Positions 25,505 to 48,504 of a DNA stretch of 64,000 nucleotides are shown one piece after another. Source of the DNA: Solobacterium sp. (GTDB lineage: Bacteria > Bacillota_I > Bacilli_A > Erysipelotrichales > Erysipelotrichaceae); contig JAFUCL010000075.1 of the NCBI GenBank assembly GCA_017459725.1, positions 62,001 through 126,000 of the forward strand, in the 5' to 3' direction. The stretch's first letter is position 1, and each line of letters begins with the position of its first letter. The position numbers and the translations under genes are program-made. The notes under the pieces are model-generated. The model saw only the letters and a program-made list of their open reading frames with translations, had not been told where the DNA came from and searched no databases.

Positions 25505-26890
25505 CTAGAAAGTCACATAGATAAAGTCTTCCGGATGATATCCCGGACCGTAGACACCGAATATCACCGCTATGATCATCAGCGCCAGATAGAACGCCCA
25601 TCTGACCGGGAAGGACCTGTTGGCCAGGAATTCCAGCATATCGGTCTTATAACGCATCAGATCACTGATAAAGACCATCAGTATCAGCACACCCGCCCAG
25701 AGCAGTTCATTGTATGTAATGCCGGCTGTTTCCGCAAGTTCTGCCGCCGAAGCAGGCAGCTGCACGGAGCCAAGAGACGCAATAATCCTTCCGGCCTCTG
25801 CCGCATCGGGTGAGCGGAAGAAGATCCAAAGGAACGCCACAGCCGCAAAATTGAACAGCACCGCAATCGGCGCAAACCACTTCATCCACGGCTTCACACC
25901 GACCTTCTGCCGCAGAATGTCCTCCAGCACATTCAGCACACCGTGCCCCAGTCCCCAGACAATGAACATCATCCCGGAACCGTGCCAGATACCCGAAACA
26001 AAGAATACAGCCAGCGTATTCAGATACTTGCGCACAAGACCTTTTCTGCCGCCGCCCAGGGGAATGTAGATGTAATCCCGCAGCCAGGAGGAAAGACTGA
26101 TATGCCAGCGGTTCCAGAAATCACGCAGGGATACCGCCAGATACGGTGTATGGAAATTGCGGCTGATGCGGAAGCCCAGCAGTCTTGCCGTACCGACTGC
26201 CACATTGGAATATGCGTCAAAATCAACATAGATCTGAAACGCATACAGAATCACACCCAGCAGTGTATAGATACCGCTGAGTTTAACATTAAGGAAAGCA
26301 CCGGTCAGATGCGAGAGCTGATCGGCAATGACCAGCTTCTGAAACAGACCCAGTACTGCCTGTATGAACCCGTTCTTCTGATCACGGTAATCGAATACAA
26401 ACGGTGTCTCCAGCTGTTTAAAGAACGGCTGCGGACGGTTGATCGGTCCGGCCTGGAACACCGGAAAGAACGCAATGTAATCCGCCACTGCGATCAGATC
26501 CTTTACTTCACATTCACCCTTTGCGCATTCGGCAATATAGCTGATTGCCCTGAAGGTATAGAACGAAAGTCCCAGCGGCATCATTATCCCTGCATGCGGC
26601 AGCACAAAGCCGGCATACTTGAACAGAAGAAGCACCGCGGCCGGAACACTGACCGAAAGCACCAGCGGCCATCTTTTGCCCGGCCATGCCTTAATCAGCT
26701 TGGCCGCCAGCCAGGTGCTGATGATCAGTGCGGCAAGATAGGCAAGATCCTGGGGACGTGCCCGCAGGAAATACAGAAACGCAAGATTGCACAGAAGCAC
26801 CGGCAGCTTTCTCTGAAACCGCGAAAACACCCACAGAAAAACTGCGGATGCGGCACACAGTATCAGGAATTCAGCCGAGAGTATATTCAT
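25505..26890 (-). CDS. MBOAT O-acyltransferase (AlgI/DltB family)
   Basis: A 461-residue polytopic enzyme with about 11 hydrophobic segments. Signature stretches are LGLSFYTFRAISYI, QAGPINRPQPF, VDFDAYSNVAVGTARLLGF, FWNRWHISLSSWLRDYIYIPLGGGRKG and SGIWHGSGMMFIVWGLGHG, with the catalytic His in WHG. It carries acyl groups, usually acetyl, across the membrane to a surface polysaccharide together with the SGNH partner downstream. No ligase or carrier protein accompanies this copy, so acetyl-CoA is the likely donor, unlike the second MBOAT at 48491. It overlaps the HAD gene by 4 bases. Confidence 0.95.
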   Translation of the reverse strand: MNILSAEFLILCAASAVFLWVFSRFQRKLPVLLCNLAFLYFLRARPQDLAYLAALIISTWLAAKLIKAWPGKRWPLVLSVSVPAAVLLLFKYAGFVLPHAGIMMPLGLSFYTFRAISYIAECAKGECEVKDLIAVADYIAFFPVFQAGPINRPQPFFKQLETPFVFDYRDQKNGFIQAVLGLFQKLVIADQLSHLTGAFLNVKLSGIYTLLGVILYAFQIYVDFDAYSNVAVGTARLLGFRISRNFHTPYLAVSLRDFWNRWHISLSSWLRDYIYIPLGGGRKGLVRKYLNTLAVFFVSGIWHGSGMMFIVWGLGHGVLNVLEDILRQKVGVKPWMKWFAPIAVLFNFAAVAFLWIFFRSPDAAEAGRIIASLGSVQLPASAAELAETAGITYNELLWAGVLILMVFISDLMRYKTDMLEFLANRSFPVRWAFYLALMIIAVIFGVYGPGYHPEDFIYVTF

Positions 26891-43686: not shown

Positions 43687-44217
43687 CTACTTGTACGGAA
43701 CAGCCGGGGTTTCGGGAAAGCTGTATTCGCCATCCAGCCACCCGAGCAAAAAAGCCTTTGCCAGGGAATTCTTTCGTATCTTCTCCCTTGCTTCTTCATG
43801 TGTGAACCATGCCCAGCTGTCCACTTCTTCGTTGTTGTGCGGTTCTCCCTTCACCCTGACCGTGAAATTCAGCATCAGCGTATTGGAAGGCGCATAGTAA
43901 TGGCTGTGGTTGAACTTCAGGGAGATCACCTCAAGGTCCATTTCTTCCTTCACTTCACGCACCACCGTGTCTTCGGCATCCTCGCCCTTGTTCACATAAC
44001 CGGCAACCAGAATGTATTCATCCCCGCCGTACTGCCGGATCATGAGTATCTTGTCTCCCGTTTCATTCTCCACGATCATGGATACACCGGTATTGAAGAC
44101 CGGAAAACGGAAGTCTCCGCAGGTGCTGCAGAAAGGAATCATCCCTTCGTTCTCCAGATATTTCGGTATGAGTCTGGTACCGCAGTGCATGCAGTAGTTC
44201 ATCTCAGGCAGTTTCAT
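43687..44217 (-). CDS. Nudix hydrolase with zinc ribbon
   Basis: 176 residues. An N-terminal zinc ribbon (CMHC at 9-12 and CSTC at about 30-33) is followed by a Nudix fold with the box GYVNKGEDAEDTVVREVKEEMDLEV (about 73-97). Its last Gly is replaced by Asp, but REVKEE is intact. The layout resembles a short NudC-type enzyme that hydrolyses NADH, ADP-sugars or other nucleoside diphosphate derivatives. It overlaps the PLP decarboxylase gene by 4 bases at the end of the ligase/carrier operon. It may clean up an adenylated or CoA by-product of that pathway, or simply ride along. Confidence 0.9.
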   Translation of the reverse strand: MKLPEMNYCMHCGTRLIPKYLENEGMIPFCSTCGDFRFPVFNTGVSMIVENETGDKILMIRQYGGDEYILVAGYVNKGEDAEDTVVREVKEEMDLEVISLKFNHSHYYAPSNTLMLNFTVRVKGEPHNNEEVDSWAWFTHEEAREKIRKNSLAKAFLLGWLDGEYSFPETPAVPYK

Positions 44218-45395
44218 ATGTTTTCCTCCGGACAGTTAAACGGGTTCAGCTGTATTCTTCTGCGCACACACCGCAGATCATCACCGCAGCTGATCCACAC
44301 TTCAGGCAGATCCCTGCTCAGCAGCATGGCAATGCCTTCACTGACGGAATATGCACCGCAGCGCTTAAAGACAAGAATATCCCCTGCTTTTGGATCACAC
44401 AGCGGCAGGTTTCTCACAATCACATCGGCTGTAGTGCAGAGAGAACCGCAGACCGTATACACTTCCGTATCCTCTGCACGCTCATCCGTGTACAGATGCT
44501 CATACGGAGGTATCTGCATCCCCTTCAGCTGGCCGTCATACTTGACCTGGTGAATACCGCCGTCACAGATCAGATAATTGATTCCGCCGCTGCTCTTACG
44601 GTCAGCGACAGAAGTCAGATAGTATCCGCATGGTGCCGCAAAGAATCTGCCCATCTCAATGGAGAGATGTGTCTTTTCCGCAAGACGCAGAAGTCCCACA
44701 GCAGCTTCCCGCAGCAGGTTCTCTTCAAGCTCTGCACCGTTTTCCTTGAAATACTCAATGCCGAAGCCGGTGCCGTATTCCACCATCTCCGCCGTATATC
44801 CGCATGTCTCACGCAGCTCATCCAGATACGCAGAAAGCATCTCCGTCTCATCAATTACTGTCTGCGCCTTTTTCTTCATGGTTCCGGTGAAATAGTGTAT
44901 ACCCGCAAAATGCACGCCCTGCCAGTTGTCTCTGTGGGCAAGAATATCCGTTACTTCACTGCGGTCCATGCCGAACTGACTGTCGCCGGCCAGACGCAGC
45001 AATACCTTCAGGGTATCCCCGCGCTTTACGGCTTCTGCACTGATGCGGGTAAGATGCAGAAGGCTTTCAGCAGTGATGTAATCAGCTCCATAGGCTGCCG
45101 CTTCCGCAATATCTGCAGCTGTTTTGTTCACGCCGGAAAAGATGATTTTCTTACCCGGAATACCTGTCCGCTTACAGATCTCAAGCTCACCCGGACTGCA
45201 TACTTCCACATGTGAAAAGACATCAGGAAGCACTGCCAGCAGAAACGGATTGGCCTTGATGGAATAGCAGAGATCAATCCCTTCCCCGAGCACGCTCTGT
45301 ACTAAACCGGCACGCGCTTTGAATTCATCCGCATCAAACACATACGCAGGTGTCTGCAGACAGGCTGCTGCTTTTTTCAGCGCATCCCTGTTCAT
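44214..45395 (-). CDS. Fold-type III PLP-dependent decarboxylase (LysA/BtrK-like)
   Basis: 393 residues with alanine-racemase-type barrel and C-terminal beta domain. The PLP lysine is Lys47 in CYSIKANP. EVCSPGELE, DSQFGMD (138-144), IHYFTGT (166-172), EMGR (247-250, phosphate loop, usually EPGR) and GSLC (317-320, the catalytic Cys from the partner subunit) followed by GAYS (347-350) are the marks of the DAP/ornithine decarboxylase group. It is coupled by 4-base overlaps to a carrier protein and a Nudix gene and lies two genes from an adenylating ligase. This is the arrangement of butirosin BtrK with BtrI and BtrJ, where BtrK decarboxylates a carrier-bound glutamyl group. A free amino-acid decarboxylase is the alternative; lysine biosynthesis is unlikely from context. 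Confidence 0.9.
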   Translation of the reverse strand: MNRDALKKAAACLQTPAYVFDADEFKARAGLVQSVLGEGIDLCYSIKANPFLLAVLPDVFSHVEVCSPGELEICKRTGIPGKKIIFSGVNKTAADIAEAAAYGADYITAESLLHLTRISAEAVKRGDTLKVLLRLAGDSQFGMDRSEVTDILAHRDNWQGVHFAGIHYFTGTMKKKAQTVIDETEMLSAYLDELRETCGYTAEMVEYGTGFGIEYFKENGAELEENLLREAAVGLLRLAEKTHLSIEMGRFFAAPCGYYLTSVADRKSSGGINYLICDGGIHQVKYDGQLKGMQIPPYEHLYTDERAEDTEVYTVCGSLCTTADVIVRNLPLCDPKAGDILVFKRCGAYSVSEGIAMLLSRDLPEVWISCGDDLRCVRRRIQLNPFNCPEENI

Positions 45396-45616
45396 TTCTT
45401 CAGCCGGTTGATCATCGCCAGCATTGCTTCGGCGGAATTGAAGTTTTCCGGCACCAGATCTGCCGGTTTGACGGTTACCCCGTAGTGCTCATCAAAAGCA
45501 CTGACGATGGCAATCATGTCAAAGGAATCCAGAATCTGATCATCGATCAGCGCAGTTTCACCGGCAAAATCCACATCCGGGCGGATCTCGCCGAGTACCT
45601 TCAGCAATTCTTCCAT
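45392..45616 (-). CDS. Acyl/aminoacyl carrier protein
   Basis: A 74-residue four-helix carrier. The phosphopantetheine attachment Ser31 lies in LDSFD, a DltC-like DSF variant of the usual DSL. Acidic helices surround it (IRPDVDF, SAFDEHYGV). It would hold the acyl or aminoacyl group activated by the ligase upstream as a thioester for the decarboxylase and the MBOAT. It starts two bases after the ligase stop and overlaps the decarboxylase start by 4 bases. No phosphopantetheinyl transferase is nearby. Confidence 0.93.
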   Translation of the reverse strand: MEELLKVLGEIRPDVDFAGETALIDDQILDSFDMIAIVSAFDEHYGVTVKPADLVPENFNSAEAMLAMINRLKK

Positions 45617-45618
45617 AT

Positions 45619-47127
45619 TTACTGTCCTTTCAGAATTTCTCTCAGTTTACTCATATCGGTCTTCCCGTTGGGAAGCTTTGGAATCTCTTCCAGCTGGGTG
45701 ACTTTGCGCGGCACCATAAAGGCCGGGAAGTCCTTACGGAACGCTTTGGCAATATCACTCTTCAGGGCCGTACCCGCATAGGCAAGACACAGTACTTCCT
45801 TCTCCCTGTCGTAATACGCATAGCAGCCCTCCACTCCGTCAATTCTACCGGCCGCACCTTCGATCTCATCGAGTTCAATGCGGTGGCCGAAATGCTTGAC
45901 CTGTCTGTCCATGCGTCCGTGGAACTCCAGCAGACCATCCTCACGGTATCTGCCGTAGTCACCTGTCCTGTACAGGCGCTTACCCGGATCACGGGGATCG
46001 GCGATATAGGACAATGCCGTGCGCTCGGGATCCTTGTAGTAACCGATGGTCACACCGGGACCGCCTACACAGATTTCTGCCGTTTCACCGGGTTCTGCTT
46101 CACTGCCGTCTTCCCGGCGCAGGAAAATCGTATAGTTCCGGTAAGGCACACCGATCGGCAGGACTTCATCTTCCGCCACAACATGATCCACTTCATAGTA
46201 TGTGCAGGAAGCGGTTGCCTCCGTCGGTCCGTACTGGTTGATAAATCTGGTACGTGGCAGATGTTCCTGGTACTGTCTCAGTACCTTTCCCGGCATCACC
46301 GAACCGCTGAAGAGAATCGTCTTCAGCTGCACGGGCAGATCCTCAGGCTTGCAGTCAAACGCCTTCAGTCTGGCCAGTGTTTCCAGACCGGCCGCACTCC
46401 AGCAGAGAATCGTCACACCATTGCGGATCAGCGTACGGAACAGCAAAGACGGCATCGCAAATTCCTTCTTCGGCAGGATCACCGTCTTACATCCGGTCAG
46501 GAACGGAATATAAATATCACGGATAGCGGCAATATAGTCAAGCGGTGCCTGGTTGCCGAGCACATCGTCTTCTTTCACATCAAGCACTTCACAGACCGCG
46601 TCAATGTAGTTCATCACGCTCTCCTGTCCGGTCAGCACGCCTTTCGGCACACCGCTCGAACCGGAAGTAAACAGCACATAGAGCGGATCGGAACCGTCAT
46701 AGTGCGCCGTACGGGCACGGATAACTTCTTCATCCGCCGTTCCTTCCGAGAGCTCTTCCAGTGACAGCAGTTTTCCGCTGTATCCGCATTCCTCCGCCGT
46801 CTTCCGGAATTCCGCATCGGTAATCAGCACTGAGGGATTCAGCAGACTGAGTATCTTACTGATTCTGGAAACCGGCATTTCACCGTCAATCGGTGCATAA
46901 TAACAGCCCGCATACACAATGCCCAGATACCCGGCAATCGTTCCCGTATGGCGTCCGGAAAGAATCGCAGCCGGCTCACCCGGTTTCAAATATGCACTGA
47001 GATTGGACGCAATCACCTTTGCTTTGCCCAGGATATCCTTGAAGGATACTTCCGTATCCCCATCAATATATGCCGTACAGCTGTTGTCCTTCTGCTTTTC
47101 CAGATAATCGATAATCGTTCTGCTCAT
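45619..47127 (-). CDS. AMP-forming adenylating ligase (DltA-like, A-domain family)
   Basis: 502 residues from the ATG at 47127 (GAGG seven bases upstream; a frame from 47160 adds 11 residues). Motifs in order: LFTSGSSGVPKG (A3), NQAPLDYIAAIRD (A4 region), INQYGPTEAT (A5), LYRTGDYG (A7), GRMDRQVKHFGHRIEL (A8) and LPNGKTD (A10). It activates a carboxylate as the adenylate and loads the downstream carrier protein. In amino-acid A-domains the A4 motif reads FDxSxxD and its first Asp binds the substrate amino group; here that position is Ile199. The substrate is therefore probably not a simple alpha-amino acid bound in the D-alanine manner. A TATAAT at 47159 may give this half of the operon its own promoter. 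Confidence 0.93.
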   Translation of the reverse strand: MSRTIIDYLEKQKDNSCTAYIDGDTEVSFKDILGKAKVIASNLSAYLKPGEPAAILSGRHTGTIAGYLGIVYAGCYYAPIDGEMPVSRISKILSLLNPSVLITDAEFRKTAEECGYSGKLLSLEELSEGTADEEVIRARTAHYDGSDPLYVLFTSGSSGVPKGVLTGQESVMNYIDAVCEVLDVKEDDVLGNQAPLDYIAAIRDIYIPFLTGCKTVILPKKEFAMPSLLFRTLIRNGVTILCWSAAGLETLARLKAFDCKPEDLPVQLKTILFSGSVMPGKVLRQYQEHLPRTRFINQYGPTEATASCTYYEVDHVVAEDEVLPIGVPYRNYTIFLRREDGSEAEPGETAEICVGGPGVTIGYYKDPERTALSYIADPRDPGKRLYRTGDYGRYREDGLLEFHGRMDRQVKHFGHRIELDEIEGAAGRIDGVEGCYAYYDREKEVLCLAYAGTALKSDIAKAFRKDFPAFMVPRKVTQLEEIPKLPNGKTDMSKLREILKGQ

Positions 47128-47158: not shown

Positions 47159-47164
47159 ATTATA
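47159..47164 (-). promoter_or_regulatory. Possible internal -10 before the ligase gene
   Basis: TATAAT on the minus strand, just after the stop of the DltD-like gene and 31 bases before the ligase ATG. It would let the ligase, carrier, decarboxylase and Nudix genes be expressed apart from the MBOAT half. Confidence 0.4.
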
Positions 47165-47169
47165 CAGTG

Positions 47170-48504
47170 TCAGCGGTAATTGCGTACGGTCTGTGTATAA
47201 TACCGCACGGCACTTTCCCCTTTGACCCTTGCTTCAACACGGATATCCCATGTCCCGGTTCCCGGCTGGATGCCGCAGGCATCCGCAACCGAAAAGTCCT
47301 TTACGACCGTCCATTCTTCCGTACCGCTTTCCCGGATCAGATACCGGTATTCGCATTCCACATTACTGCCGGTCCATGCAAAAGCCTGGATCAGATATCC
47401 CTGGGAAGCTTCCTTCAGGTCAAAATCAACACTGCTTATTGTCTTGATTGACGCAAGATACGCTTCCGGAGTCCGGAAGAGATCTTTGTATCCGCCGCTG
47501 CGGAAATACGGAATCAGCTCAGCCAGCGAAGCCGAGAATACCTCAGCACCGTCATAGCAGAGATGATCATAATCATGGTAGTACTCCTCTTTTGCCTCAT
47601 ACAGCTCCGGCACGGCCAGACTGAAATCGACATACGGCACTTCATATTCCGCAAACAGGTCTTCCAGCACCTGCATCTTCTCGAAATACCACGGTCCGTA
47701 GCTCACTACGTCAAACACCGGCTTCGGTGTATTCACCACATACAGCCGCACATCATTCTCACGGCACATCCTGGCAATGTCTTTCAGCGACTGCAGCGCC
47801 GGCGGATAGAAATCCTCGTTGAAATAACCGATGGATGTCTTTTTGCCGACATCGTTGTAGTCAAGCATACCGTCGTAGGCCTGGAAGCCGCTGTTGTAAT
47901 ACCGGGATGTCGGTGAGTGTATATTCAGGGATTCTGACGGTGCAGTCCCTTTGATCTTCTCAATGACATTCTTGATGATTTCGGTTGGACGCAGGAAGGT
48001 ATGATTGACCGACCACGGTGCCCAGCAGGACAGCGCTTCCGCCGTACGGAAATGATCCCGGGTCGAGAAGAAGCGCAGATCCGCCCTGATATCGTCAAGC
48101 AGAGGCACGGCATCCTTGTACGCCGCGTTGAAGGCAATCTGTGAAGCAAGACTCTGCAGGTTGCCGAGCGAACTGTAGTTCACCGCATACACGATCTCCT
48201 TGGGATGCTTATACCGGATCAGATACTCCACCAGCATGGCCGTGCTTTCGGGAGACTGTCCGGCCGTACCGGCATTGTATACGGATATACCGAGCTTCTC
48301 CGCAAGAATACCCGGATCGATATTCATCTCGGCAAGCGAAGAGCCGACAATGACCATATCAATATCATCCCGCTCCTGCAGTTCGGTAAAGGTAATACGC
48401 GCCGATCCATAGTTCGGGGACAAAACAAAATCCATGGCCTGGTTGCACAGAACGACTGCACACACCGCCAGCAGCACCTTCAGCAGTTTCCTAGAAATTC
48501 GCAT
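47170..48504 (-). CDS. DltD-like SGNH acyl-transfer protein
   Basis: A 444-residue membrane-anchored extracytoplasmic protein. One N-terminal helix (about 5-25) precedes the SGNH domain with IVGSSLAEMNI (nucleophile Ser near 53), NAGTAGQSPES and the C-terminal YDHLCYDGAEVF carrying the Asp/His pair. After about residue 360 comes a beta-sandwich module with YRYLIRESGTEEWTVVKDF and a W-D-I-R-V stretch, like a three-tyrosine or fibronectin-type carbohydrate-binding domain. It should take the acyl group delivered by the MBOAT protein and place it on the polymer. Start is ATG 48504, after AGGAGG; it overlaps the MBOAT end by 14 bases. Confidence 0.87.
   Translation of the reverse strand: MRISRKLLKVLLAVCAVVLCNQAMDFVLSPNYGSARITFTELQERDDIDMVIVGSSLAEMNIDPGILAEKLGISVYNAGTAGQSPESTAMLVEYLIRYKHPKEIVYAVNYSSLGNLQSLASQIAFNAAYKDAVPLLDDIRADLRFFSTRDHFRTAEALSCWAPWSVNHTFLRPTEIIKNVIEKIKGTAPSESLNIHSPTSRYYNSGFQAYDGMLDYNDVGKKTSIGYFNEDFYPPALQSLKDIARMCRENDVRLYVVNTPKPVFDVVSYGPWYFEKMQVLEDLFAEYEVPYVDFSLAVPELYEAKEEYYHDYDHLCYDGAEVFSASLAELIPYFRSGGYKDLFRTPEAYLASIKTISSVDFDLKEASQGYLIQAFAWTGSNVECEYRYLIRESGTEEWTVVKDFSVADACGIQPGTGTWDIRVEARVKGESAVRYYTQTVRNYR

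Follow-up and report, generated by a model that had tools for sequence, protein, structure and literature searches.

The minus strand of the window (i.e., the whole stretch of 64,000 nucleotides analysed here) contains an operon in which the genes for an MBOAT O-acyltransferase, an SGNH-like protein, a carrier-protein ligase, an acyl carrier protein (ACP), a PLP-dependent decarboxylase and a Nudix hydrolase follow each other in this order (Table 1). The ACP gene starts 2 nt past the ligase stop, and the starts of the decarboxylase and Nudix genes each overlap the preceding stop by 4 nt. The ligase start is an ATG at 47127 with AGTGAGG 5' of it; a further ATG is found upstream at 47160. The closest ACPs encoded in such operons of relatives share 47-58% identity with this ACP. 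The MBOAT protein scores 164 bits against the LTA_dltB family TIGR04091, below its cut-off of 375, and the SGNH-like protein gave no match in a Pfam search; homologues of the latter adjoin MBOAT genes in relatives, and one of them has a weak GDSL match. The hexapeptide transferase lies outside the gene set conserved in relatives, and its membership of the system is uncertain. The operon is surrounded by a polysaccharide locus encoding glycosyltransferases, a flippase, a bacterial sugar transferase, an O-antigen-ligase-like protein, a LytR-CpsA-Psr protein and UDP-galactopyranose mutase, and its probable function is the addition of small acyl groups to a sugar polymer of the cell surface. A second, distant MBOAT is encoded in the same polysaccharide locus at window positions 25505-26890.

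Table 1. Genes of the operon, the adjoining transferase gene and A4 positions of the ligase, in window coordinates.
Feature	Position	Strand	Basis
Nudix hydrolase, 176 aa	43687..44217	-	NUDIX Pfam, 62 bits
PLP-dependent fold-III decarboxylase, BtrK-like, 393 aa (P0002)	44214..45395	-	
Acyl carrier protein, 74 aa, Ppant site DSF	45392..45616	-	PP-binding Pfam, 22 bits
Carrier-protein ligase / stand-alone adenylation domain, 502 aa (P0001)	45619..47127	-	AMP-binding Pfam, 187 bits
A4 motif NQAPLDYIAAIRD, ligase residues 192-204	46516..46554	-	
A4 codon Arg203	46519..46521	-	
A4 codon Ile199	46531..46533	-	
A4 codon Asp197	46537..46539	-	
SGNH-like membrane-anchored protein, position as DltD	47170..48504	-	Homology to neighbour genes in relatives
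MBOAT O-acyltransferase, DltB-like, 492 aa	48491..49969	-	MBOAT Pfam, 73 bits
Hexapeptide acyl/acetyltransferase, 174 aa	49969..50493	-	Hexapep Pfam; adjoins MBOAT

The ligase P0001, the sole member of its family in the MAG to which the window belongs, scores 307 bits against the adenylation-domain model TIGR01733 (cut-off 317), and the best fold matches of its AlphaFold2 model include PheA, EntF and DltA. Eight core residues (T154, S155, G156, K162, E303, D390, R405 and K489) are invariant in 46 homologues, which bears out the first-pass annotation in its statement that the core motifs are intact and the enzyme is not decayed. That annotation had also placed an isoleucine at the position of the conserved A4 Asp and an aspartate two residues earlier, and both readings hold. 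The A4 region reads N192-Q-A-P-L-D197-Y-I199-A-A-I-R203-D204, and HMMER alignments to both LgrA adenylation domains set I199, with no gaps, opposite the Asp of FDGS/FDIS. In the model (mean pLDDT 88.7, block means of about 73-88 around A4) residues 199-204 form the A4 helix. A register shift of two residues that would restore the Asp is ruled out by the LgrA alignments together with the model, and Asp197 is also present in relatives that contain the A4 Asp. Elsewhere in the protein, Ser274 occupies by motif alignment the position of the DltA Cys selective for D-Ala, Pro301 of YGPTE is kept, and there is no deletion after GPTE relative to LgrA.

When 84,980 species genomes were scanned, four close relatives of this ligase emerged (L095-L098; 51-56% identity), all from MAGs, three of which are labelled as goat, sheep and water-buffalo gut; the phylum sample contained no further member of the group. 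All four carry the same A4 string as the window ligase (NQAPLDYIAAIRDIY / GNQAPLDYIAAIRDIYFP), and because the string is invariant among them Ile199 is the product neither of an assembly or sequencing error nor of decay. The loss of the A4 Asp is therefore real and common to a small group of relatives. These five ligases, hereafter the Ile clade, are invariant and distinct from 41 ligases with an FDFD motif at residues 198-203 (A4), 244, 247, 276, 298, 306, 307, 329, 410, 492 and a few others, most of which are in or beside the substrate pocket. Pocket codes, read at PheA positions 235, 236, 239, 278, 299, 301, 322, 330 and 331 and aligned by motif, are I A R A L S Q A S for the window ligase, I A R S C S Q A S for the ruminant relatives (with little V/I variation) and D V K S M/L S L C N for the FDFD group. 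The basic residue in the PheA-239 column, Arg203 in the window ligase and Lys in the sister group, is a feature held in common with decarboxylase-linked ligases. This clustering in the pocket of substitutions fixed in the clade fits a change of substrate rather than decay, and substrate recognition has therefore probably been altered in the Ile clade.

The partner decarboxylase P0002 has BtrK (2j66/7ru7) as its closest PDB chains. It contains the fold-III PLP site and the motif CTTAD (CT..D, as in BtrK) where LysA has CESGD, keeps 54 of 55 clade-conserved columns, and falls within a 100/100 clade with 38 ligase-linked decarboxylases, apart from LysA. By sequence, it is an ACP-dependent decarboxylase of the BtrK type. 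Canonical LysA above cut-off was absent from the window MAG (G000), one of 10 such cases among the 25 genus genomes searched. P0002 was considered as the LysA of this MAG and rejected, although the MAG has no other, on account of its score (164 bits against TIGR01048, cut-off 298) and its separate clade.

Whether the loss of the A4 Asp goes with this decarboxylase was examined in 62 homologous ligases whose A4 region could be read, that of the window included, drawn from family, genus and class samples and from the species-wide scan, with the neighbours of some loci inspected over only 1.5 kb on each side. Ligases with the A4 Asp are paired with a decarboxylase in 38 cases and unpaired in 9, whereas those with Ile or Ser in its place are unpaired in 14 of 15, the window being the exception (Fisher p 3e-7 for loci that are related by descent and thus not independent). 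All 38 paired ligases outside the window keep the A4 Asp (FDFDVSVKD). What decarboxylase presence does track is the Asp two residues earlier: a decarboxylase accompanies 39 of the 46 ligases that have it and none of the 16 that lack it (p 9e-10, again for loci related by descent and not independent). The order-sample loci L143 and L144 obey the same rule. No decarboxylase adjoins the ligase in the four nearest relatives, whose whole genomes, when searched, returned LysA-like matches only, at 26-27% identity; the operon that the ligase faces in the ruminant relatives consists of transglutaminase, ACP, MBOAT and SGNH genes and has no decarboxylase. The proposal that the missing Asp fits the decarboxylase partner is thus not supported: since every paired ligase outside the window keeps the residue and nearly every ligase without it is unpaired, the decarboxylase does not explain the loss, and VinN, a known loading enzyme with a decarboxylase partner, keeps it as well (D230).

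Several known systems resemble parts of this operon. With the Dlt system of teichoic-acid D-alanylation (DltA-DltB-DltC-DltD) it has in common a ligase, an ACP, an MBOAT and an SGNH-type protein in one operon, and a ligase of DltA-like fold. It differs in that P0001 fails the score test of the DltA equivalog TIGR01734 (237 bits, cut-off 559.85), lacks the A4 Asp and has Ser274 instead of Cys, and in that the operon includes a decarboxylase and is located in an exopolysaccharide cluster. Among solved structures P0002 is closest to BtrK of the butirosin pathway (BtrJ-BtrI-BtrK), in which glutamyl-ACP is converted to GABA-ACP; the substrate of BtrK is L-glutamyl-ACP, BtrJ is a different type of ligase from P0001, and the Btr product goes to an aminoglycoside. 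The pair TIGR03098/TIGR03099 of exosortase A loci likewise combines a ligase with a PLP decarboxylase, and TIGR03099 is the best NCBIfam match of P0002, but both cut-offs are missed by a wide margin (165 against 592 bits for P0001, 185 against 478 for P0002), and the partners here are MBOAT and SGNH proteins. In vicenistatin biosynthesis, an adenylation enzyme, a stand-alone ACP and a PLP decarboxylase (VinN-VinL-VinO), a set with counterparts among the window genes, load a 3-methylaspartyl group onto the ACP and decarboxylate it there, which provides a precedent for loading followed by decarboxylation (PMC11284099). The VinN product goes to a polyketide synthase and not to a glycan. According to PMC11253843, its A4 Asp binds a beta-amine and its beta13-beta14 loop is one residue shorter; the window ligase has neither this Asp nor a deletion after GPTE. 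By analogy, the window operon would work like a Dlt system with an additional VinO/BtrK-type step, and it is not classed as Dlt. In the open-access papers searched, whose coverage was limited, no description was found of a DltA-like ligase combined with a BtrK-like decarboxylase, an ACP, an MBOAT and an SGNH protein.

In the reading favoured here, with a probability of roughly 0.4, P0001 does the loading in a Dlt-like operon for surface decoration, and its pocket has been rebuilt, in this clade, around the former A4 Asp site. The substrate would be Asp, Glu or a close analogue, which the ligase would adenylate at the side-chain carboxylate and load onto the neighbouring ACP, leaving a free alpha-carboxylate for which Arg203 (Lys in the sister group) would be the nearby putative contact. 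The BtrK-like decarboxylase would then strip this alpha-carboxylate on the ACP to give a beta-alanyl- or GABA-like group, which the MBOAT and SGNH proteins would transfer to the exopolysaccharide of the locus. The complete version of this scheme, a Dlt-like system without the A4 Asp that esterifies exopolysaccharide with beta-alanyl or GABA groups after side-chain loading and on-carrier decarboxylation, is put forward still more tentatively. Side-chain loading is favoured because the decarboxylase is intact, its gene overlaps that of the ACP, P0001 is the only ligase of its family in the MAG, and amino acids are the substrates of PLP decarboxylases, which require an amine. Further support comes from the close packing of the ligase, ACP, decarboxylase and Nudix genes, from the closeness of P0002 to BtrK and its place among the ligase-linked decarboxylases, from the VinN/VinL/VinO precedent, and from Asp197 and the basic PheA-239 residue, both in common with decarboxylase-linked ligases. 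As panD was not found in the window MAG or in the four relatives (five genomes searched), a supply of free beta-alanine made by PanD is unlikely. Counting against the scheme are the four nearest ligases, which have the same A4 string and no adjacent decarboxylase, the retention of the A4 Asp in every other decarboxylase-linked ligase, and the fact that the published enzyme with Ile at the A4 site, StsA, acts on alpha-keto acids. Specificity codes with Arg239 (alpha-aminoadipate, iso-linked Glu/Asp) and Val235 (beta-alanine) could not be traced in the open-access papers searched, and these parallels are not used as evidence.

A substrate without an alpha-amine (an alpha-keto, alpha-hydroxy or plain acid) is a serious rival to an acidic amino acid, if the less likely of the two; the operon would then be a mosaic and its decarboxylase a leftover or otherwise used. 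The lack of a decarboxylase in the nearest relatives speaks for this rival. StsA has Ile306 at the A4 Asp site, and hydroxy-acid enzymes have Ala or Gly there (PMC11253843). StsA also has Met415 in place of a conserved Pro (PMC11253843), which maps here, through LgrA numbering (P483), to the Pro of YGPTE; P0001 has thus the hydrophobic residue at the A4 site but not this second mark of a keto-acid enzyme, Pro301 being kept. A mosaic origin is hinted at by a mismatch between trees: the Ile clade (100/100) of the full ligase tree is placed on a long branch outside the FDFD clade (98/95), unlike the window decarboxylase, which lies inside the linked decarboxylases. However, once the pocket columns are removed, an AU test does not reject nesting of the Ile clade with the decarboxylase-linked ligases (p 0.41), so that a firm claim of a mosaic operon is not upheld. 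In the MBOAT tree the window protein is likewise on a long branch, and its placement is uninformative. The requirement of PLP decarboxylases for an amine, and the intact gene overlapping that of the ACP, also argue against this rival.

The Asp itself does not settle the question of the amine. In DltA it binds the alpha-amine (D197 in B. cereus), with Cys268/269 next to the D-methyl group, and yet McyG, with Val at the A4 site, activates L-Phe (PMC11253843). As this example shows, an enzyme that lacks the residue may still use an alpha-amino acid, and the earlier conclusion that P0001 should therefore activate a carboxylate without a flanking alpha-amino group was too strong, although a change in substrate recognition remains probable. 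That P0001 activates the alpha-carboxylate of an ordinary amino acid, with backbone carbonyls or a different side chain holding the amine, is nevertheless improbable, given that Ile199 was fixed along with many changes in and around the pocket and that an alpha-thioester leaves the decarboxylase no alpha-carboxylate to remove. Less probable again is ordinary recognition in which Asp197 has taken over the amine contact. Asp197 is invariant in the Ile clade, but it is equally so in all 41 FDFD ligases, beside a normal A4 Asp, and therefore probably has a separate role; neither the alignments nor the model contain a shift. The long branch of the clade could indicate a degenerate, inactive ligase, an explanation made hardly credible by the invariance of all core motifs and by the identical A4 residues and common pocket of relatives that have diverged to 51-56% identity.

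Dlt-type D-alanylation is a classic means of altering the surface charge of bacteria. The loci compared here indicate a family of Dlt-like operons with a BtrK-like decarboxylase (38 sampled besides the window), within which the Ile pocket represents a variant. The pocket codes number at least four, two of them without the amine-binding Asp. If the scheme favoured above, with side-chain loading and decarboxylation on the ACP, is true, these bacteria attach acyl groups different from D-alanine to their surface glycans, and the substrates can be tested from the pocket codes.

The second group without the Asp comprises ten ligases (L043, L046, L075 and L088-L094) in which Ser replaces it within FYFSMSV or LYFSMSV (pocket code of this FSMS group, S M S/L/T S L A L D I); they adjoin an ACP and usually an MBOAT, without a decarboxylase. 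Another pocket group, with LY(F/V)DACLKE (L066, L077, L078, L080 and L143), has an ACP and usually an MBOAT, also without a decarboxylase, and transglutaminase-like genes are present near some of its ligases. A transglutaminase-like protein with an Ig-like domain is encoded by the first gene of the ACP-MBOAT-SGNH operon in two Ile-clade loci (L095:5713-7239 and L097:6108-7412). The window MAG itself contains a second MBOAT-ACP-SGNH set (L138:7829-11859; G000:C94) without an adjoining ligase or decarboxylase, and the window ligase may have to serve both its ACP and that of the operon, which are about 50% identical.
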